NCBI GenBank assembly: GCA_017621225.1
Contig: JAGATN010000047.1
Span: 1-47,270 of the forward strand
Source of the DNA: Muribaculaceae bacterium
GTDB taxonomy: Bacteria > Bacteroidota > Bacteroidia > Bacteroidales > Muribaculaceae
Length of the DNA: 47,270 nucleotides
Direction: 5' to 3'
This document shows positions 1 through 47,270 of the stretch, piece by piece (within the stretch, counting starts at the first letter, position 1; each line of letters starts with the position of its first letter). A program made the position numbers and the translations under genes. The notes under the pieces are model-generated. The model did not search any database, was not told the DNA's origin, and worked only from the letters and a program-made list of their open reading frames with translations.

Positions 1-196
1 GATATACTATAAGCCCGGAGAACTTACGAGCTCAATGTATGGCAAGACCGTCAGAATAGTTGGCGGCATCCTCGACAAATACGAAGGACGCCTGCTCTCC
101 ATCAAGGGCAAGCGCAAACGTCACCTAATCATAGAGCTACCCCACCTGATAACCACCGCCGTAGAAGTCGATCCGGACTACATACAGGTCATCTGA
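1..196 (+). CDS. UpxY-like transcription antiterminator (NusG family), C-terminal part
   Basis: Only the last 64 codons lie in the window (first full codon at position 2, stop TGA at 194-196). The peptide has the KOW-domain look of NusG-type proteins: a VRIVGGILDKYEGRL stretch followed by a basic KGKRKRH segment, a beta-strand IIELP and a short tail ending YIQVI. In Bacteroidales the UpxY proteins have this C-terminus and sit at the head of capsular polysaccharide operons, where they let RNA polymerase read through the untranslated leader. Its position directly before a polysaccharide cluster on the same strand supports this. No UpxZ-like gene follows. Assignment rests on the C-terminus and context only. 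Confidence 0.72.
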   Translation, partial: IYYKPGELTSSMYGKTVRIVGGILDKYEGRLLSIKGKRKRHLIIELPHLITTAVEVDPDYIQVI

Positions 197-496
197 TGTT
201 TTTCCGCAATGGTTGTCGCCCATTCCATCAAAGATGATGAATTACAATGTATCGGCTGATTCTCCGACCGACGAGTTGCTCGCTTTTTGAAGTCGTTTCT
301 CGGCAGTCAGATAGTATGCCTCAACTATTTTGTGGAGAATCACACCTTATAACTCTGAAAGGCGCAAGAGCCTGATTCGCAACGTCAACGACTGAAAAGA
401 GCAAATCAACATTCATCCTTTTTGATTTTGATATAATTTTCCTTGTGAAAATTATCCATCTATATATAATCATTTTAAGTAAACTTCGTAATTACT
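197..496 (+). promoter_or_regulatory. Leader between the antiterminator gene and the polysaccharide genes
   Basis: About 300 bases with no credible gene. The first half has host-like composition; from about 420 onward it becomes strongly AT-rich, like the genes that follow. A weak hairpin (cgag-ttg-ctcg followed by five T) lies near 268-285. By analogy with UpxY-controlled loci this untranslated leader could be where the antiterminator acts, but no specific recruitment site can be recognised from sequence alone. Confidence 0.35.
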
Positions 497-1570
497 ATGC
501 TAAACTTTACAGTAGGACCTGTTATGGCCAATAATGAAGTATTATCCATTGGCGGAGAACAAGTACCATATTTCAGAACACAAGAATTTTCTAATATAGT
601 ATTAGAAAATGAATATTTGATGAAAAAATTTGTAAATGCATCGGATGGATCAAAAGTTATTTTTATAACTGGGTCGGGAACTGCTTCAATGGAGGCCGTT
701 GTAATGAACACCCTAACACCCAAAGACAAAGTCATAGTTATTGACGGAGGATCTTTTGGACATAGATTTACACAACTATGCGAAATACATAACATACCAT
801 ACACAGCCATCAAGCCACAAATAGGTCATCCAGTTACCAAAGACATGCTTGTTCCATTCATCGGAAAAGGATATACAGGATTATTGGTAAACATTCATGA
901 GACCTCAACAGGAGTGCATTATGATCCTCAAATTTTAGGTGATTTTTGTAAACAAGAAAAACTATTGTATATAATCGACGCAATAAGTTCCTTTCTTGCC
1001 GATCCTTTAGATATGCAAGCAATTGGTGCAGATGTAATAATTACCGGATCTCAGAAGGTTCTTGCATGTGCTCCTGGTATTTCAATTATTGTTCTTGGCG
1101 ACAAAGCCTTAACGAGAGTTTATGAATCACAGGCAAAAACTATGTATTTCAATCTTAAAGAAGCTTTAAAGGATGCAGAAAGAGGACAAACACCCTTTAC
1201 TCCAGCCGTTGGTATAATCAGGCAAATTAATGCCCGCCTTTTACAGATTGATAAATCCGGAGGCGTAAATTCGGAAATAAACAATGTAAAAATACAAGCA
1301 GAAGATTTCAGAAATAAAATTAAAGGCCTACCTTTTCAAATAGTATCAAAATCACTATCCAATGCATTAACGCCCCTACACCCTACAACAGCCTCCGCAT
1401 ACGATATTTTTCTGAAACTTAAAGATAATTACGGCATTTGGGTCTGTCCCAATGGTGGTGCGCTTAAAGATGCCATATTTCGTGTTGGGCACTTTGGAGC
1501 TCAAACCACAAAAGAAAATGACATCCTTATCAACGCTCTAAAGGACTTAAAATCAGAAGGAATAATCTAA
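497..1570 (+). CDS. Class V (alanine-glyoxylate/2-aminoethylphosphonate type) PLP aminotransferase
   Basis: 357 residues, normal for fold-type I class V aminotransferases. Visible landmarks are a GSGTASMEA phosphate-binding segment (about 59-67), HETSTG (134-139), the PLP-ring aspartate in DAISSF (161-166) and the Schiff-base lysine in GSQK (Lys187). The closest families by motif are alanine-glyoxylate and 2-aminoethylphosphonate-pyruvate aminotransferases. The next gene starts one base after the stop and encodes a cytidylyltransferase, so the likely job is to make a small amino-alcohol or aminoalkyl phosphate for CDP activation and transfer to the polysaccharide. No PEP mutase is present, which argues against de novo aminoethylphosphonate synthesis within this window. 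Substrate is unknown. AT-rich codon use matches the next seven genes. Confidence 0.8.
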
Positions 1571-1571
1571 T

Positions 1572-2915
1572 ATGGTAAAAGTAATTACATATGGCACTTA
1601 TGATTTTTTACACGAAGGGCATATAAGATTGCTTAAACGTGCTAAAGAATTGGGCGACTATTTAATTGTCGGAATTACTGCTGACGGCTTTGATAAGGCC
1701 AGAGGGAAAATTAATGTTCAACAATCGTTGATGGAGCGAATTGAAGCGGTAAAAAAAACCGGATTAGCCAATCAAATCATAATCGAGGAATACGATGGGC
1801 AAAAGATTGATGACATAAAAAAATATGACGTTGACATATTTACAGTAGGTTCTGATTGGATTGGCAAATTTGACTATTTAAATGAATTTTGTAAAGTAAT
1901 ATATTTGGATCGAACAAAAGGCATTTCAAGTTCTGAAATTCGAGCTAATAAACAAATTATCCGAATTGGATTAGTAGGTGAAACATCCATTCTTACAAAA
2001 TTTAAAAATGAATGCAAATACGTGAACGGCGTTTCCATCAGTGGTATTCATACAGAATCAAAAGTAGAATTAGATGATGAGCTAAACCAATTGGCCGATT
2101 CTAATTTGACGTTAGATGAATTATTAAATATCAGCGACGCTCTTTACATCGCATCTCATCCGCAAAAACACTATTCACAAATCAAACTTGCACTTGAAAA
2201 AGGGAAACATATTTTATGCGAATCACCGATAGCTTTAAACCCTAATCAGTTTGAAACCTTAATTCAATTAGCCATAGAGAAAAAACTAGTCCTAATGGAT
2301 GGAATAAAAACAGCTTATTCCCTAGCATTCAATAGATTAATTTTATTAATAAAAAGTGGCATAATCGGGGATGTAATCTCAATTGATACCACTTGCACAA
2401 GCCTTATTGACATTGGACCAAATGGAGAATATTTAAAACCTCATACATGGAACACTATTTGTTGGTGGGGGCCTACGGCAATTTTACCAATATTGGACAT
2501 CTTTGGAACGAAATTCAAATCATTGCAATTATCAACCAAATTTTTAAAGGATCACACAGAATTCGACCTTTTCACAAAAGGATCATTTATATACAATAAT
2601 GGAGTGGCTTCATTTAAGGTTGGACAAGGAGTAAAGTCTGAAGGAGAAATGATAATTTCAGGGACCAAAGGTTATATATACGTTCCGGCGCCATGGTGGA
2701 AAACTGACTATTTTGAAGTTAGATATGAGAATCCAACTAATAATCGACGATATTTTTATCAGTTGGAAGGAGAAGGAATTCGTTATGAAATACTGTCATT
2801 TATTCGTCAAATCGATGGATTTTATAGTTATTCGAATATTTCTACCGAGATTTCTCGAACAATAGTTTCCATAATAAATAATATTGTCGTAGGAAATAAT
2901 AATATCATAAATTAA
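1572..2915 (+). CDS. Cytidylyltransferase fused to a Gfo/Idh/MocA-like oxidoreductase domain
   Basis: 447 residues in one uninterrupted frame. Residues 1-~127 are a TagD/GCT-type nucleotidyltransferase: YGTYDFLHEGH with the HxGH motif (His14-His17), and RTKGISSSEIR (114-124), the family's RTxGISTT-type signature. Residues ~130-447 look like a Gfo/Idh/MocA protein: a Rossmann start RIGLVGETS, then GKHILCESP and a following segment resembling the family's substrate domain. The family's catalytic EKP is ESP here (217-219), so the lysine is missing and the domain may be non-catalytic or altered. Together with the aminotransferase upstream and the CDP-glycerol transferase-like protein downstream, the most economical role is making a CDP-linked phospho-donor. 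Exact substrate unknown. Confidence 0.8.
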   Translation: MVKVITYGTYDFLHEGHIRLLKRAKELGDYLIVGITADGFDKARGKINVQQSLMERIEAVKKTGLANQIIIEEYDGQKIDDIKKYDVDIFTVGSDWIGKFDYLNEFCKVIYLDRTKGISSSEIRANKQIIRIGLVGETSILTKFKNECKYVNGVSISGIHTESKVELDDELNQLADSNLTLDELLNISDALYIASHPQKHYSQIKLALEKGKHILCESPIALNPNQFETLIQLAIEKKLVLMDGIKTAYSLAFNRLILLIKSGIIGDVISIDTTCTSLIDIGPNGEYLKPHTWNTICWWGPTAILPILDIFGTKFKSLQLSTKFLKDHTEFDLFTKGSFIYNNGVASFKVGQGVKSEGEMIISGTKGYIYVPAPWWKTDYFEVRYENPTNNRRYFYQLEGEGIRYEILSFIRQIDGFYSYSNISTEISRTIVSIINNIVVGNNNIIN

Positions 2916-2957
2916 AACATTCTTTTTAATTGATGATATTTTAAATTAATGAATTAA

Positions 2958-4394
2958 ATGAATAGTGAATCCATATCCACTAAAGCCGTTAAAAGCACAA
3001 TTTGGTCTGCATTAAACAAATTCAGTGTTACAGCTTTAAAATTTTTTGTCAATCTATTATTAGCACGACTCTTATCGCCTAATGATTTTGGCATAATTGG
3101 AATGATCACTATTTTCATAGCAATATCATATACTTTTGTTGACGGTGGATTTGGATCAGCTCTGATACAGAAAAAAAATCCAACAGAAATTGACTACTCT
3201 ACAATATTTATATGGAATGTAACTATTGGTTCGCTTTTTTACATTATTATATATTTTAGTTCTAACTATATAGCTCAATTTTATCGTATGCCAATCTTAT
3301 CCACTATATTAAAAGTATTAGGTATTACTGTTATATTAGGTGGAATTGCAAATATTTTGTCGAACAGGCTACAAAAAAAATTGAGATTTAAAGGATTAGC
3401 CATTACAGATATCGCTTCATATATTATAAGTGCCGTAATCGCAGTTATTATGGCATTCAAAAATTTTGGAGTTTGGAGTTTGGTTTTTATGTCCATAATT
3501 CAACCTTTCATTAGAATAATATTGATGACAATTATAACAAAATGGATTCCAACTATACAGTTCTCATATTCAGCTTTTAAAGAACTATTTTCATTTAGTG
3601 GATATCTATTCATAAGCAACTTATTAGAAAACACATTTAAAAACTCACAAGGATTAGTCATCGGAAAAATGTTCTCGGCAACACAAATGGGCTATTATTC
3701 CCAAGCTGAAAAATTAAATAATATTACAAGCTATATACTTCCACAAGTAATAACATCGGTTATGTATCCTATATTTTCCAAATATCAAGATGATAGGGAA
3801 AAATTGACATCCATAATATTAACAAATTTGAAAATAATTTCATTCATAATATTTCCACTGCTAACGATTTTAATATTGATTGCACCTGATGTAATAGTAT
3901 ATTTATACGGCACTAAGTGGATCAATTCCATTCCGTACTTTAGAATTTTATGCGTGGGAGGGTATTTTTTATGTTTAAGCGATATTCTATATTATGCCAT
4001 AGCGGCTTGTGGAAAATCAAAACTACTATTAATGTCTAGTTTCTATAAATGGGGAATGCTTGCATTGCTAATGGCTCTAGGGTTAAAATTTGGTATGGAT
4101 GGATTGGTTTGGAGTATTTCAATAAGCTTTTTAAATATTTTTTTTACAAATTGCGTATTACTATACAGAACACTTGACCTAAGTATATCATCAATACTTA
4201 AGTCTGTTTATATTACCGCATTTCTAAACATCTCAATATTTTCTATTTTAATAATTGTCATATCATATTTAAACATACATTGGACATTAATAATTTCAAT
4301 TTATATCATTACATACATAATTTCATCATATTGGCTAAACACCGAAACGGTTATAAAGAGCCTTGAATTAATAAAAAAGATCAGGCAAAAATAA
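2958..4394 (+). CDS. Polysaccharide flippase, Wzx/WzxC-like (MOP superfamily)
   Basis: 478 residues, hydrophobic throughout with about a dozen to fourteen membrane segments. The N-terminus (WSALNKFSV...FFVNLLLARLLSPNDFGIIGM) is typical of the lipopolysaccharide-biosynthesis flippases that move undecaprenyl-linked repeat units across the inner membrane. It follows the fusion gene after 42 bases and is one base from the next gene, so it is part of the same transcript. Such proteins are diverse, so the call is to family, not substrate. Confidence 0.88.
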   Translation: MNSESISTKAVKSTIWSALNKFSVTALKFFVNLLLARLLSPNDFGIIGMITIFIAISYTFVDGGFGSALIQKKNPTEIDYSTIFIWNVTIGSLFYIIIYFSSNYIAQFYRMPILSTILKVLGITVILGGIANILSNRLQKKLRFKGLAITDIASYIISAVIAVIMAFKNFGVWSLVFMSIIQPFIRIILMTIITKWIPTIQFSYSAFKELFSFSGYLFISNLLENTFKNSQGLVIGKMFSATQMGYYSQAEKLNNITSYILPQVITSVMYPIFSKYQDDREKLTSIILTNLKIISFIIFPLLTILILIAPDVIVYLYGTKWINSIPYFRILCVGGYFLCLSDILYYAIAACGKSKLLLMSSFYKWGMLALLMALGLKFGMDGLVWSISISFLNIFFTNCVLLYRTLDLSISSILKSVYITAFLNISIFSILIIVISYLNIHWTLIISIYIITYIISSYWLNTETVIKSLELIKKIRQK

Positions 4395-4395
4395 T

Positions 4396-4923
4396 ATGAA
4401 CATAGTATTTCTCATTTACAAATCGCTACGCCTTTATATACGGAAGTTGAAATCTGAATTTTACACATTCAAAGCAAAGCAACAAGTCGTACACTATGGT
4501 AAAAATACATATTGCGGAGGCCCATGCTCTTTTTGTGGTACGGTTAGCCTTGGTGATAATTGTAATTTTAATGGTATGAAAATAATTGGATTGGGATCTG
4601 TAATGATTGGCAATAATTTTCACTCTGGTATTGAATGTATGATAATAACATCAAATCATGATTATGATACAGATATATGCATTCCATACGGAGACAATGT
4701 AATAAAGAAAAAAATTATAATAGAAGATAATGTTTGGTTTGGTAATAGAGTTCTAATTACCGGCAATGTAACAATCGGAGAAGGTGCCATTATTGGAGCT
4801 GGAACCGTCGTCACTAAAAATATCCCCAAATATGCAATAGTAGGCGGCAATCCAGCCAAGATACTAAAGTATAGAAATATAGATCATTATTTAGAACTAA
4901 AGAACAACAAAATGTTTCACTAA
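4396..4923 (+). CDS. Hexapeptide-repeat (LbH) O-acyltransferase
   Basis: 175 residues. The second half shows repeated [LIV]-G-x4 turns (for example IEDNVWFG, VTIGEGAIIGAGTVVTKNIP) ending in the GGNPAKILKYR signature of the sugar acetyltransferases of the left-handed beta-helix fold. The histidine in SNHDYD is a reasonable catalytic base. It is packed between flippase and transferase genes with one-base gaps. Likely acetylates a sugar of the repeat unit using acetyl-CoA in the cytoplasm; the acceptor cannot be predicted. Confidence 0.85.
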   Translation: MNIVFLIYKSLRLYIRKLKSEFYTFKAKQQVVHYGKNTYCGGPCSFCGTVSLGDNCNFNGMKIIGLGSVMIGNNFHSGIECMIITSNHDYDTDICIPYGDNVIKKKIIIEDNVWFGNRVLITGNVTIGEGAIIGAGTVVTKNIPKYAIVGGNPAKILKYRNIDHYLELKNNKMFH

Positions 4924-4924
4924 T

Positions 4925-6160
4925 ATGTCAGTTAGAAATTTCCTTTCATTAAATAAAAAATTAATAGAAACTTTATATTACAAATGCATAAAATGGAAGA
5001 TCATAGCTAATATAAAAAATAAACAGCATATACGAATAGCCTTTATGATGGCATCTGAAGCTATGTGGAAATATGATGATTTATATAAATATTTAAATAA
5101 TGATCCACGATTCATACCGTTCATTGTACCGTCTCCATTTCCAAATCAGTCTTCAAATTTAATGTATGAATACGATAAAATCATAAAATTCTGCAATGAA
5201 AAGAATTACAATTATATACTAAGCTTAAATAATAATGGTTTGCCCCAAATATCAGCAAAAGAAATAAATGCAGATATTGTAATTTATACACAACCTTATA
5301 ATCGAGGTCAAAAAGAATGGAGAATAAATAAATTTTGGACCAATTCATTATTCATATATACACCTTACGGCACCAATATTGAAAAGGAGAATAGATTTTA
5401 TAATTCTTTATTACAAAACATTTCATATATTCAATTTTACCCCAATATATATATATCACGTTTAGTCAATAAACATATCTTTTTCAAATCTAAACACATA
5501 TATACATCCGGAGATGATTCATTTCATAAATACCAACCGCACGAAATTAATACTGACGAATGGAAACAACATAAGTTATCTTTAAAAAGAATTATTTGGG
5601 CTCCACATCATTCCATTATGAAAAATGATTCATTACAATATTCTACATTTTTGGAATACGCAAATTTTATGCTCGAAATTGCAAAAAAATTTATCGGAAA
5701 GGTACAATTCATAATAAAACCTCATCCATTACTATTATCAAAATTACACATTATATGGGGATATGAAAAAACGACAAAATACTTTAAACAGTGGGAATTT
5801 GGAGAAAACACACAAATTGTATGGGGAAAATATGACATAATATTTCGTAATTCGGACGGAATAATCCATGATTCATCAGGATTTACATCAGATTATCTAT
5901 TTACAGGCAACCCCGCTTTATTCATAGATAACGGAATGGTCGAATCTCATTTAAATGAATACGGACGTAAATGCTTTAATCTTCACTACAAAGCCCATAA
6001 TAAATCTGATATCACCAATTTTATTACTGAAGTAATAATAAATCGAATCGACCCATTAAAAATCAAACGAGATGAATTTATGGCCCAATTGAACAATGAA
6101 ACAAAATATAACTCAATTGGAGAATTTATGTATGAAACTATCAAGCATACATTGTCTTAA
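4925..6160 (+). CDS. CDP-glycerol glycerophosphotransferase-like (TagB/TagF family) protein
   Basis: 411 residues. The C-terminal half carries the hallmarks of the Glyphos_transf family: WAPHHS, FIIKPHP and DGIIHDSSGFTSDYLFTGNPALF, which in TagB/TagF surround the catalytic histidines. The N-terminal half is less conserved. TagF-family enzymes transfer glycerol phosphate (or related polyol phosphates) from CDP donors onto glycans. The CDP-forming fusion protein encoded upstream would supply the donor, so together they probably attach a phosphodiester-linked group to the polysaccharide. No membrane span is evident. Base composition is AT-rich like its neighbours. Confidence 0.8.
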   Translation: MSVRNFLSLNKKLIETLYYKCIKWKIIANIKNKQHIRIAFMMASEAMWKYDDLYKYLNNDPRFIPFIVPSPFPNQSSNLMYEYDKIIKFCNEKNYNYILSLNNNGLPQISAKEINADIVIYTQPYNRGQKEWRINKFWTNSLFIYTPYGTNIEKENRFYNSLLQNISYIQFYPNIYISRLVNKHIFFKSKHIYTSGDDSFHKYQPHEINTDEWKQHKLSLKRIIWAPHHSIMKNDSLQYSTFLEYANFMLEIAKKFIGKVQFIIKPHPLLLSKLHIIWGYEKTTKYFKQWEFGENTQIVWGKYDIIFRNSDGIIHDSSGFTSDYLFTGNPALFIDNGMVESHLNEYGRKCFNLHYKAHNKSDITNFITEVIINRIDPLKIKRDEFMAQLNNETKYNSIGEFMYETIKHTLS

Positions 6161-7409
6161 CGAACCAATTAAACATTGGTTGTACACATTTATGAATCTA
6201 TTATTTTACACAAGTATAATAGTAGATTTAATAAACGGATATTTACAATTAAAGCTAAATATCAATACTCCCATCGGTCAATTATTCAGACTTACAATTA
6301 TATCATTCTTAATATTCTTTCTATTAAAAAAAAGCCTAAATAAGATTACAAAATATGCAATCATATGGGTCTTGTTATGGTTTATAAATTGTATAATTTG
6401 GGTTCTATCATATTCTATTTATGACATATCTTTTTCAATTAGCATAGAAATTAACGATATGATACGAATCGTCTATACACTTTTAATGATAGGATTCTTT
6501 ATAAAATACTATGATTATTATGGAACTTCATCATTGTTAAAAATAGTCCAAAATTATGGAGCTTTAATAGCTTTATGCATAATTTTTTCATTTATAACTG
6601 GATTCGGGCAATATTCTTATGGAGAAAATTACGGTTTCGGAACTAAAAGTTGGTTCATTGCGGGTAATGACATCGGCATAACAATGATATTTACATTAAT
6701 CGCATCCAGCGTTAATTTATTTCGTAGTTTCTCATCATATAATTTATTATCATATTTAACCATATTCATTGGATCACTATTAGTTGGTAGCCGAGTTTGT
6801 ATATTTGGTGCATCGTATACTATAGTATCAACAATTATATACTTCATATTTTTCTTTACACCAAAGAAACAAGATAAAATAAAATATTACATATCACTTA
6901 TTTTATTATTACCTTTGATAATATATGGATGCATTATATTTGTATCATTAATATACTCGCTTCTCGATAATTATGCACTCGCACGTCTTTCCATTGAAAG
7001 TATCGGTTCTGCCAGAGACAACCTTACCTTAACGACAACAAAATACATCGAATCTTTAAATGGATTATCACTATTAATAGGTCGAGGCGCATCTGAGTGC
7101 TATAATTACATAGCAACCCATATTGGATATGATACACCGTTTAAATCAACCGAAGCCGATATATATGATTTAATTGGCTCATATGGTTTTTTATTTGGTT
7201 TATTTACTTTATTACCATTTTTTCATTGGACCTTAAAATCAATCGTTAAATATTTAAAAAACAGGACTTATATCAATTATAACAGCTGTTTAATCTGCAT
7301 ACTTTTTTTAGCCATTGGCAGCTTATCCGGACACTGCATTAGAAATAATATGGTAGCCCCTATATATGCCATTTTTATAGGAATGCTATATCATAATAAC
7401 CAAACATGA
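6132..7409 (+). CDS. O-antigen/capsule polymerase, Wzy-like membrane protein
   Basis: About 425 residues with ten or more hydrophobic segments and a larger loop in the second half containing LIGRGASECYN and a TEADIYDLIGSYG segment, as in Wzy polymerases and O-antigen ligases. The open frame extends up to 6096, deep inside the previous gene; ATG at 6132 (29 bp overlap) or at 6192 (just after the preceding stop) are both possible, and 6132 is chosen tentatively. Together with the flippase upstream, it indicates a Wzx/Wzy-dependent pathway. Wzy proteins share little sequence, so this is by topology and context. Confidence 0.72.
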   Translation: MKLSSIHCLNEPIKHWLYTFMNLLFYTSIIVDLINGYLQLKLNINTPIGQLFRLTIISFLIFFLLKKSLNKITKYAIIWVLLWFINCIIWVLSYSIYDISFSISIEINDMIRIVYTLLMIGFFIKYYDYYGTSSLLKIVQNYGALIALCIIFSFITGFGQYSYGENYGFGTKSWFIAGNDIGITMIFTLIASSVNLFRSFSSYNLLSYLTIFIGSLLVGSRVCIFGASYTIVSTIIYFIFFFTPKKQDKIKYYISLILLLPLIIYGCIIFVSLIYSLLDNYALARLSIESIGSARDNLTLTTTKYIESLNGLSLLIGRGASECYNYIATHIGYDTPFKSTEADIYDLIGSYGFLFGLFTLLPFFHWTLKSIVKYLKNRTYINYNSCLICILFLAIGSLSGHCIRNNMVAPIYAIFIGMLYHNNQT

Positions 7410-8488
7410 GAATTCTAACTATTTCCAATATGTATCCATCCGCAAAAGATAAGGTATATGGAACTTTTGTAAAAAATTTTTATCTGGATATATGTTCTAA
7501 GAACAAATCCGGTATAAATGATTTAATAGCCATTAAAGGTCGAAGGAAATCAAAAACATCTACCATTGGGGCATACATACACTTTTATATTAAGACGTTA
7601 TTCGATTTAGCATTTCGAAATTATGATTTAATATATGTTCATACTATAACATTCCCTATTATTCCAATTCGTATAGCAATGATTATAAAACATCTACCAA
7701 TCGTTTTTAATGTACATGGAGGTGATGTTTTAGTTCATAATAAAATTGCAAACATTCTTAAAATGCTTGCAAAACCAATATTACCCAAAGCTAAATTGGT
7801 GGTTTGCCCAAGCGAATATTTCAAGGGCATCGTGAAATCTGAATTCCCAAATGTTCCAGATAATAAAATTTTTGTTTCTCCATCGGGAGGGATTGCACCA
7901 TATTTTTTTAAAGAAAAAAATAATCGTGACAACGAAAATGATGAAATGGTTGTGGGGTATGTATCGCGAATTGACCCCGGTAAAGGTTGGAACCTGCTGC
8001 TACAAGCTGCGGCAAAACTAATGAATGAAGATTGCAAAATACGCATCATAATAATAGGTCGAGGTAGTCAAGAACAAGAATTAAAAGAGAGCATAAGAGG
8101 ACTAGGATTATCGGACGTAGTTAAATATGTAGGGCCAATAAAATATGAGGAATTACCATTATGGTATCAAAAATTTGACATTTTAGCATTCCCTACGATG
8201 GAACGTGAAAGCTTGGGGTTAGTAGGACTCGAGGCTATGGCGGCAAGCGTTCCGGTAATAACCAGTAACATAGGCGCTCAATCACATTATGTAATTGACG
8301 GACAAAATGGTTATCTATTTAAATCAGGCGATGCATCTGACCTATATAATGCATTAAAAAGATATCTAAATTCAACTATGGCCGACAAAAATAAATTGTC
8401 ACATGAAGCATACAAAACCGCATTAAATTATGAAGCGACTTCAATTTCAGAAAAATTATACACTAAACTTTTAAGCTTAATGCAATGA
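7406..8488 (+). CDS. Family 4 glycosyltransferase (GT-B fold)
   Basis: 360 residues. The start overlaps the preceding stop by four bases (ATGA). N-terminal acceptor domain begins ILTISNMYPS and includes FNVHGGD. The C-terminal domain has VGYVSRIDPGKGWNLLLQA and the EX7E element ESLGLVGLE followed by AMAASVPVI, the nucleotide-sugar binding signature of GT4. It adds one sugar to the lipid-linked repeat unit; donor and linkage cannot be assigned. Its own stop overlaps the ATG of the following, frameshifted acyltransferase by four bases. Confidence 0.88.
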   Translation: MRILTISNMYPSAKDKVYGTFVKNFYLDICSKNKSGINDLIAIKGRRKSKTSTIGAYIHFYIKTLFDLAFRNYDLIYVHTITFPIIPIRIAMIIKHLPIVFNVHGGDVLVHNKIANILKMLAKPILPKAKLVVCPSEYFKGIVKSEFPNVPDNKIFVSPSGGIAPYFFKEKNNRDNENDEMVVGYVSRIDPGKGWNLLLQAAAKLMNEDCKIRIIIIGRGSQEQELKESIRGLGLSDVVKYVGPIKYEELPLWYQKFDILAFPTMERESLGLVGLEAMAASVPVITSNIGAQSHYVIDGQNGYLFKSGDASDLYNALKRYLNSTMADKNKLSHEAYKTALNYEATSISEKLYTKLLSLMQ

Positions 8489-9025
8489 TATCCAAAGCGA
8501 AACGATTGTGGTTAACAATGGGGGGGGGTAATTATCTATTACTCAATATTTTACCATTTACCATCGGAGTTAAGCATAATCAAGAAACTAAAATCGGCAT
8601 TTCTACATATAATCAATCCTTCAATATCCAAGCAATCAAATATTTGTAGAAAAGCATACATCGGAAACATATCAAATATTGAACTTGGAAATCGTTCGGG
8701 TCTTGGCAAAAACTTTAGAATGCAAAACGTTTTGTTGAAAATTTCTGATAATGTAATGATTGCATCTGACGTACTGGTAATTGGAGGCGGTCACAGATAT
8801 GACGATCTCACCACACCGATGATAAATCAAGGCAACATCGGAAAAACATCGCTGATAATCGAAGATGATGTTTGGATAGGAGCGCGAGTTACAATCGTTG
8901 CAAAAAATTATACCATTGGCAAAGGCTCAATAATAGCGGCAGGCGCAGTTGTAACCAAAACCGTACCCCCCTATGCCATTGTGGCTGGTAATCCGGCAAA
9001 AATAGTAAAGTATCGTACATCTTAA
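8485..9025 (+). pseudogene. Hexapeptide acyltransferase, interrupted at a nine-G tract (probable phase-OFF state)
   Basis: ATG at 8485 overlaps the stop of the glycosyltransferase (ATGA) exactly as in the previous gene pair. Its frame runs through a G tract at 8520-8528 and stops at 8647. The +1 frame is open from the G tract to the stop at 9023-9025 and encodes a full acyltransferase: IIYYSIFYHLPSE near the start, later GNISNIELGNRSGLG, IEDDVWIG, AAGAVVTK and VAGNPAKIVKYR. That frame has no ATG before 8720 (TAA at 8513), and starting at 8720 would remove roughly the first third. Eight or eleven G would join the two parts; eight G gives 179 residues, the normal size. So it is either a slippage-switched gene in the OFF state or a homopolymer sequencing error. 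Predicted role when ON is O-acetylation of the polysaccharide. Confidence 0.82.
8520..8528 (+). repeat. Poly-G tract (nine G) inside a coding region
   Basis: A run of nine G in a block of DNA that otherwise contains very few G runs. It sits 35 bases after the start codon of an acyltransferase gene, where a one-base change restores the frame. Confidence 0.95.
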
Positions 9026-9097
9026 ACAATATTATCACACACTTGGATCGAACTGCATTAAGAATTCGTGTTTTTCGTAAAATTACTTAGTAAACAT

Positions 9098-9523
9098 ATG
9101 AAACTACTATCCTCTATTCGTAATAACATAAGACTTTTAGTAATATACGTAAGATGGTATATATATATATATTACGGTATGAATATAGCCAAATCAGCGA
9201 GAATTTCAGTAGGAGCCAAGTTGGATAAAACTCATCCAAAAGGGATAAACATAGGCGATGAATCGTATGTAGCATCCGGAGCCATAGTATTTACACACGA
9301 TTTTTCGAGAGGCATTCATTGTGACACATACATTGGTAAACGTTCATTTATTGGTGCAAACGCCATAATAATGTGTGGCGTTAAGATTGGCGACGAAGTT
9401 ATAGTCGGGAGCGGAAGCGTGGTAACAAAAGACGTTCCTTCAAATTGCATAGTTGCGGGAAATCCGGCACGAATAATCAAAGAAAACATCCGAACAACGA
9501 AGTTTGGACAACTGATTAACTAA
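9098..9523 (+). CDS. Hexapeptide-repeat acyltransferase
   Basis: 141 residues from the ATG at 9098; a GTG ten codons upstream is less likely. The hydrophobic start LLSSIRNNIRLLVIYVRW is followed by beta-helix turns (INIGDESYVASGAIVF, YIGKRSFIGANAII, VKIGDEVIVGSGSVVTKDVP) and ends VAGNPARIIKEN, the standard C-terminus of these sugar acetyltransferases. HDFSRG supplies a plausible catalytic histidine. It is the third enzyme of this type in the locus. A (TA)7 run lies in the codons for YIYIYY but does not disturb the frame. Confidence 0.82.
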   Translation: MKLLSSIRNNIRLLVIYVRWYIYIYYGMNIAKSARISVGAKLDKTHPKGINIGDESYVASGAIVFTHDFSRGIHCDTYIGKRSFIGANAIIMCGVKIGDEVIVGSGSVVTKDVPSNCIVAGNPARIIKENIRTTKFGQLIN

Positions 9524-9538
9524 TTGCATTAATCACAT

Positions 9539-10237
9539 ATGAATAAGGTTTCATTAAATGGGGTTGAAGTGATGCCATTCACTTCAACTGAACAATTGTT
9601 TGCGTATGTCGATGCCCATAAAGGCATTTTGGTGGCCATAAATGCCGAAAAGATTCTCCATGCCACCGAAAAGACACGCAATTTGATAAACCGTAATCTC
9701 GGATACGTAGATGGAGTAGGAGCTCAATTGGCTTTGAAACAGAAGGGTCATAAAGAGGTGTGCCGAATACCCGGATGCGAATTGTGGCTTAAAATAGTAG
9801 AACATTTTTACAAAAAAAGAACATTTTACTTGGTTGGCAGCAAACAGAACGTGATAGAAGAAACCGTTGCAAAGCTTAAATCTGACTTCGACGGAATAAG
9901 AATATTAGGGTTTCACGACGGATATTTGAACGATGAAGCAATACGACAAAATGTAATAACCGACATTGTTGACAAAAAGCCCGATGTGGTATTCGTAGCA
10001 ATGGGATCACCCAAACAGGAACTCCTTATGGAGGAGATACAAACGCGACATAATGCCATATTTCAAGGATTGGGAGGTAGCTTCGACGTCTACACCGGCC
10101 ATGTGAAGCGTGCTCCTAAATGGTGGTGCGACCACAATCTCGAATTTGCCTATCGGCTTATACGCCAGCCAAAACGAATAACGAGGCAGATACATTTATT
10201 GAAATTTGCATGGTGGCTGATGCTGAAAAAACTTTGA
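9539..10237 (+). CDS. wecG: WecG/TagA/CpsF family glycosyltransferase (GT26)
   Basis: 232 residues, full family length. Recognisable segments are INAEKILHA, the YVDGVGA motif with the conserved aspartate, YLVGSK, the late MGSPKQE and GLGGSFDVYTGHVKRAPKWW. WecG transfers ManNAcA from UDP-ManNAcA and TagA transfers ManNAc, both onto undecaprenyl-PP-GlcNAc. The following two genes make UDP-ManNAcA, so a ManNAcA transferase is the better call here. Base composition is intermediate between the AT-rich block and the next genes, placing the composition boundary in this gene. Confidence 0.87.
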   Translation: MNKVSLNGVEVMPFTSTEQLFAYVDAHKGILVAINAEKILHATEKTRNLINRNLGYVDGVGAQLALKQKGHKEVCRIPGCELWLKIVEHFYKKRTFYLVGSKQNVIEETVAKLKSDFDGIRILGFHDGYLNDEAIRQNVITDIVDKKPDVVFVAMGSPKQELLMEEIQTRHNAIFQGLGGSFDVYTGHVKRAPKWWCDHNLEFAYRLIRQPKRITRQIHLLKFAWWLMLKKL

Positions 10238-14029: not shown

Positions 14030-14200
14030 TTTAGAGCATGTTTACTTTTGGCTTATGTTAAAATTTAGAGGGGATTTCAGAATATGTTTGGAGATTGAGT
14101 GAGGAAGTTATGGGGTGCCATAACGACTGAATGAAATCTCCAAACATATTCTGAAAGGCCACTAAAAATTTCATAGAGTTAAAAGTAAACATACTCTTAA
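14030..14200. repeat. Long palindromic element with conserved apex, copy 1
   Basis: About 171 bases that fold almost end to end into one hairpin. Outer arms share ATGTTTACTTTT, middle arms share TTTCAGAATATGTTTGGAGA, and the apex is GTTATGG-GGTG-CCATAAC. Between the middle arm and the apex is a 10x10 internal loop (14097-14106 against 14125-14134) in which antiparallel partners form several tandem G.A/A.G mismatches. The apex and this loop recur at 47196-47227 while the surrounding stem does not. It contains no gene. It could be a mobile element derivative (MITE-like), a structured RNA or a protein-binding DNA hairpin. Confidence 0.75.
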
Positions 14201-47149: not shown

Positions 47150-47270
47150 TGTCGAAGGAATTGAGAGGATTTGTCAAGTAGATTTTTGATATTTATGAAG
47201 GAGTTATGGGGTGCCATAATGACTGAATAAATATCAACAAGATGCTGACAAAGACCTCAATGACATGACA
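47150..47270. repeat. Long palindromic element with conserved apex, copy 2 (cut by the window end)
   Basis: Left arm 47150-47195 and right arm 47228-47270 are imperfectly complementary; the best part is TTGATATTTA / TAAATATCAA. The apex GTTATGG-GGTG-CCATAAT and the flanking internal loop (TGAAGGA against GACTGAA) match the apex of the element at 14030-14200, while the arms differ in sequence. The loop partners read T-A, G.A, A.G, A-T, G-C, G.A, A.G. The element may continue past the window. Confidence 0.72.

Follow-up and report, generated by a model that had tools for sequence, protein, structure and literature searches.

Hairpins with a conserved tip in MITEs and in the ends of predicted IS5-family elements of Muribaculaceae

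What are the two long hairpins that share an apex and differ in their stems on one contig of a Muribaculaceae genome, and in what form might they act? The window, that is, the whole stretch of DNA analysed (47,270 nt), is the entire contig C18 of an assembly comprising 2,528,188 bases in 47 contigs. A nearly identical apex had been noted in the preliminary description and was recovered here: the apex motif search found exact apices at 14107-14123 and 47203-47219, and 32 of 36 positions were identical between 14101-14136 and 47197-47232 when aligned by eye. Shuffled windows contained on average 0.15 apex matches at three or fewer mismatches, and two matches occurred in none of 100 shuffles. The surrounding stems, said to differ in sequence and to pair each with itself, do differ, and both regions folded far better than 200 shuffles each, at -78.3 kcal/mol (z = -12.4) for the first region, assigned to family A below, and at -48.4 kcal/mol (z = -6.6) for the second, assigned to family B. 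GC content was 0.326 in window positions 1-10000 and approximately 0.50 from 15 kb onward.

The hairpin recurs throughout the source genome. A pattern search at two or fewer mismatches detected 45 apex copies, with none for the reversed control, which bears out the expectation of further genomic copies, and a covariance model detected 55 hairpins. The source-genome copies belong to two families of gene-less elements of approximately 160 bp, A and B, with terminal repeats GAGTATGTTTACTTTT and GAAACTGTTTAAATTT, respectively. Short derivatives with terminal repeats and without the hairpin were also present (L046, L049, L055, and L056). On the plus strand of their contigs lie 36 of the 45 apex copies, though contig direction should be arbitrary; this excess does not follow GC skew (20 of 44).

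The extents first given for the two window copies, 14030-14200 and 47150-47270, marked real elements, the limits of which are corrected here. The first is a complete family A MITE of 163 bp (14034-14196, plus strand), as judged from its sequence and its membership of the same family as other genome copies. Its left terminal repeat, GAGCATGTTTACTTTT (14034-14049, plus strand), has one mismatch to the right one, GAGTATGTTTACTTTT (14181-14196, minus strand). The element is flanked by a TTA target duplication, the left copy of which (14031-14033) was assigned from the sequence and the TNA rule seen in other elements and the right copy (14197-14199) from the sequence. The conserved hairpin tip with its outer stem (14087-14144, plus strand) scored 58 bits with covariance model R2, which was built with a different family A copy and excluded the one in the window; the apex stem and loop (14107-14124, plus strand) start 73 nt from the left end. 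The second is a family B MITE on the plus strand, visible over 140 bp from 47131 to the contig end at 47270. Its tip with outer stem (47183-47240, plus strand) scored 68.5 bits with the same model, and its apex stem and loop (47203-47220, plus strand) start 72 nt from the left end. The trinucleotide preceding it is CAA, not TNA, and its right end and right duplication are not visible because the contig ends inside the copy. Contigs C4, C14, C20, and C37 likewise start, and C9, C13, C18, and C23 end, within family B copies, and because of these starts and ends the assembly is taken to be broken by family B elements.

Among the readings proposed at first, that of a non-autonomous mobile element family proved apt. 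The elements are short, lack coding capacity, and have terminal inverted repeats and target duplications, as MITEs do; ends matching those of an autonomous element were found for A, B, and the L098 type, the matching IS5 elements lying elsewhere. Identical TNA trinucleotides on both sides were seen in 87 of 124 elements, whereas 5000 shuffles averaged 53 and never exceeded 69, TNA beside both ends being a detection requirement for all 124. Both window hairpins are thus almost certainly copies of MITEs of IS5-like elements. Larger elements of 336-358 bp carry two hairpins inverted to each other, the second with a different apex stem and similar flanks. The idea that C- and D-type elements share a downstream gene was rejected, as the reading frames there were unrelated and the elements end at the second, inverted hairpin. 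A terminal-repeat pair 1.4 kb apart on contig C30 was likewise rejected as an autonomous element: it encloses a RecA-like gene, as read from the translation, and no transposase. When the flanks were searched for empty sites in 34 genomes of the genus, the matches were mostly to a tRNA gene region, and no alignable site was found.

The usual description of a DDE insertion sequence is by short terminal repeats that are read as double-stranded DNA, and IS5 members of the IS1031/ISL2 type use TNA. Full-length elements were collected by a DDE_Tnp_1 search (12 genomes) and by a search with one transposase (293 genomes, of which 48 matched). Pfam DDE_Tnp_1 and DUF4096 were matched above cut-off, and three proteins, those of L205, L191, and L193, scored above the cut-off for NF033580 (transpos_IS5_3). 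By this match of the DDE transposase, the full-length hairpin elements probably belong to the IS5 family, and their transposition activity is predicted. They resemble that family (NF033580) in transposase, terminal inverted repeats, and three-base TNA duplication, and differ in that one clade here has long, geometry-conserved hairpins near both ends.

Ten hairpin-bearing insertion sequences (nine of 1024-1281 bp and one of 851 bp) and 13 short elements of 870-898 bp were selected for recognisable ends, loci without clear ends being omitted. The hairpin was present at 18 of the 20 ends of the former. The two ends lacking it, the right one of L220 and the left one of L229, are both on the gene-downstream side and look like hairpin losses, apparently by clean excision. 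At the foot of the hairpin, the gene-upstream end reads [T/C]CGCA in 10 of 10 cases and the gene-downstream end CGG in eight of eight (both by eye). The hairpin in the gene-upstream end sits in the leader of the transposase gene. No hairpin was found by the covariance model within the ends of the 13 short elements; the one locus of this set with a model match, L238, has it beyond the limits of the element. A tree built from 24 transposases, L243 not among them, separated hairpin-bearing from hairpin-less elements at a single branch (support 97/97), four of the hairpin-bearing rows being long-branched. By their transposase sequences, the hairpin-bearing elements stand apart as a separate clade of Muribaculaceae IS5-family insertion sequences. 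The hairpin-less elements of approximately 0.9 kb have several copies in some genomes, and since hairpin-less IS5 elements exist, the hairpin is not needed for transposition chemistry. In the source genome a single intact IS5-type element, L193, was detected, and its terminal repeat matches neither A nor B exactly; the DDE_Tnp_1 search of that genome yielded no autonomous element matching either family.

The presence of these transposase genes bears on the initial suggestion of a hairpin recognised by a recombinase; a recombinase of the IS200-like or integron kind gained no support. Strand-specific mismatched hairpins are typical of systems read by HUH transposases (IS200/IS605, RAYT) or integron integrases, but terminal inverted repeats and TNA duplications, with genes for IS5-family DDE transposases between the ends, make such an enzyme extremely unlikely as the reader of this hairpin. 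Terminal repeats, duplications, and IS5 genes also set the elements apart from IS200/IS605 and RAYT/REP, and identity with an integron attC site is unlikely because of the terminal repeats and duplications.

The ends of A, B, and the L098 type agree with those of hairpin-less IS5 elements located in other genomes (L241, L192, and L233): along 16-20 nt, no more than one mismatch was seen. For a hairpin MITE in L091, identity with the end of the hairpin-less L192 element extends over 28 nt. Among the two-hairpin families, the nearest ends to those of D are in the hairpin-bearing L226 (22/24) and the nearest to those of C in hairpin-less elements (21/24), while the ends of family E had no good match among the IS5 elements compared. 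The folded core thus goes with ends of several transposase lineages. On these end sequences, the hairpin seems to behave as a module common to several such lineages.

The geometry of this module was constant. Across types, the left side of the tip reads GA[AG]GGA and the right side GAC[TC]GA; modelled as a fold, the tip would comprise two tandem G-A mismatch pairs with two further pairs between them. It is combined with a variable apex stem of 6-7 bp and a paired, variable outer stem, and the structurally conserved core spans approximately 95 nt. Of the 94 distinct tips for which an end was recognised, 61 had A-T as the -4/+4 pair, 16 G-C, 10 T-T, five G-T, and two A-C; as the -3/+3 pair, 85 had G-C, five A-C, and four T-C; all four GA were present in 80. 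On the right, the tip scan demanded GA[CT][TC][GA]A and allowed only T or C at +4; it also demanded two of the three features on the left and pairing in the apex stem, so the conservation of the mismatches and the apex pairing are partly imposed. In five loci (L247, L248, L256, L124, and L134) C-A, which is no Watson-Crick pair either, stands in place of the inner A-G mismatch at -1/+1.

In 116 of the 125 distinct ends, the apex stem began 71-73 nt from the transposon end; of the others, seven had a distance of 68 nt, one of 62 nt, and one of 74 nt. Ends were sought 58-85 nt from the tip only, 42 of 191 tips were omitted for want of a recognised end, and duplicates were merged to give the 125. 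The 71-73 nt register is common to short MITEs, elements with two hairpins, and insertion sequences. The folded strand reads 5' to 3' inward from each transposon end.

We assessed covariation on an alignment of 50 tips. A set of 38 representatives was limited to the 71-73 nt register, and copies of one family are not independent. The proposed structure left 89.3% of cells paired, compared to 36.9-43.6% when one side was slid by one to three columns, and 271 cells were changed on both sides against a shuffle mean of 97. Because the scan had required apex pairing, pairing of the apex helix is not evidence. The outer stem was unconstrained by the scan; in the outer helix 82.8% of cells were paired and two-sided changes occurred in all 10 pairs, so the early expectation that covariation would emerge once many copies were aligned, and with it the idea of selection on structure, held. 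In 23 ends taken from two-hairpin elements and insertion sequences, pairing of the lower arms is shifted by one base between -27 and -39, except at the mismatch-prone -33/+32; the shift leaves -26 unpaired, and this base is A in 15 of the 23. It is apparently the folded shape, not the letters, that is under selection.

One process that could produce such a pattern in the absence of selection on shape is template-switch correction, which, together with common descent, would keep the arms of a MITE palindrome complementary. The window copy of family A looks like such a case: its right arm is the exact complement of its left arm, unlike in eight other aligned full-length copies (the arm alignment was limited to copies with a strict left end), and correction of this kind can mimic covariation. 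It would, however, erase mismatches, yet the tip mismatches persist in diverged families (80 of 94 tips, a count partly imposed by the scan). The 72-nt register persists too, and the hairpin is kept across insertion sequences with long transposase branches. We therefore regard this explanation as improbable.

Covariation and constant non-canonical positions resemble those of known RNA families, and the hairpin might be a free-standing structured RNA gene or riboswitch merely carried in repeats. This is very unlikely, given that the window had no Rfam match at gathering scores, that across seven loci only a tRNA exceeded the Rfam gathering score, and that every element inspected closely had transposon ends, with no neighbouring gene seen to recur. 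The structured RNA of the preliminary description thus has no Rfam counterpart in the window, and what is retained of that claim is RNA as a candidate acting form.

We tentatively favour a DNA-end mechanism, short of calling it probable. The A and B MITEs would be moved in trans by IS5-family transposases that insert at TNA and duplicate it, and the hairpin core is also a subterminal part of the ends in one IS5-family clade. Working as a folded single DNA strand, either extruded or exposed by replication, the hairpin may serve as a cis-acting signal of the transposon end, its shape being recognised by the transposase or a host factor. It may aid mobility or survival enough that MITEs with the ends of hairpin-less transposases carry it. 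A role at the DNA end is favoured because the hairpin occurs at both ends and keeps a constant distance from the end. A protein reading the duplex would need neither the -4/+4 coupling nor the constant mismatches. Against this mechanism stand the existence of hairpin-less IS5 elements, the terminal repeat of L193 that fits neither family exactly, the empty-site search that gave no alignable site, the lack of strand bias with GC skew (20 of 44 source-genome copies), and the two insertion sequences that are hairpin-less at one end; G-U tolerance suits RNA equally. A more specific version, in which a DDE transposon lineage reads a geometry-conserved folded strand 72 nt from each end and the module has moved onto MITEs riding hairpin-less transposases, is possible, though we rate it as rather unlikely; if true, the shape-read module would be the DDE counterpart of single-strand hairpin reading in IS200/IS605.

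The hairpin could instead act as RNA, a reading that we take as plausible and hold with less confidence. Transcription entering from either side would yield the same inward hairpin, which might shield the transposase gene from outside promoters, or control or direct RNA processing, and render intergenic insertions harmless. The inward strand folds at both ends, and the gene-upstream hairpin lies in the transposase leader; RNA fits because of this leader position and the tolerance of G-U. On the inward strand, G-U exceeded A-C in the outer helix (43 versus 13, where composition would predict 58 versus 32) and in the lower helices (23 versus 6). Cutting of Correia MITE transcripts by RNase III is on record (PMC10969869). 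On the other side, there is no obvious RNA reason for a constant distance to the cleavage site. Nor did the 44 source-genome elements show a significant bias in orientation to neighbouring genes, as judged by eye: the upstream gene was in sense in 16 and the downstream gene in antisense in 27. None of the 44 lay inside a long reading frame as called by a simple ORF caller, and several adjoined the end of one. We place DNA slightly ahead of RNA as the acting form.

The literature searched offers partial parallels. The nearest described relatives there are MITEs of Porphyromonas gingivalis with IS5-like ends: BrickBuilt, MITEPgRS/MITE464, and MITE239 are gene-less Bacteroidales elements with ends like those of IS5-family ISPg elements, and BrickBuilt is intergenic with predicted long stem-loops (PMC4596501). 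These stem-loops derive from 23-nt repeats (PMC4596501), and their likeness to the hairpin here is one of description. Correia/NEMIS and ERIC are MITEs whose transcripts form long hairpins; RNase III cuts Correia transcripts at the terminal repeats, whereas the hairpin here is a separate internal module with constant mismatches (PMC10969869). The IS200/IS605 elements share subterminal hairpins recognised on one strand (PMC6006769). They have an HUH enzyme, in contrast to the terminal repeats, target duplications, and DDE-type IS5 transposases found here. No description of this hairpin was found in the open-access literature searched. A conserved fold that lies at a constant distance from the ends in one IS5 clade, and also occurs in MITEs with ends like those of other IS5 lineages, points to a layer of end recognition or RNA control that has been overlooked. 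The hairpin elements also explain a large set of hairpins between genes in Muribaculaceae genomes, as well as the source-genome contigs that start or end inside such copies.

The motif was detected by pattern search in 47 of 297 genomes of the bacterial family, where the copies comprise at least several types with differing terminal repeats and stems. Two genomes had no pattern match, yet 16 (G007) and 12 (G022) model matches. Two loci with weak model matches, L251 and L253, are uncertain members, and both were included in model R2. Among the matches listed, most named records with the motif were from Muribaculaceae or other Bacteroidales, and two were contigs of one MAG labelled Lachnoclostridium. 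The model matched at least 10 of 344 genomes of the order (source genome included), at least seven of them from other families, and at least one of 345 genomes of the phylum, namely the source genome; as 16 candidates were scored per genome in both scans, these counts are lower bounds. In other families of the order, the strict scan found the tip at six loci and a recognised end at five, with apex distances of 72, 72, 70, 73, and 67 nt, the last with a weak terminal repeat. No model match was found in 11 further IS5 loci, 10 from other families and one from the same family (L317), several of them without clear ends.

At L319 (near 2188-2429), a locus from a different family within the order, a variant-tip hairpin element adjoins a hairpin-less element of 899 bp with the same terminal repeat, as seen by eye. 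Two contigs bearing the motif (L183 and L184) come from a viral collection. The sequence around the motif in L183 is shared with a Paramuribaculum intestinale record (L095), and this contig may be a bacterial or prophage region.
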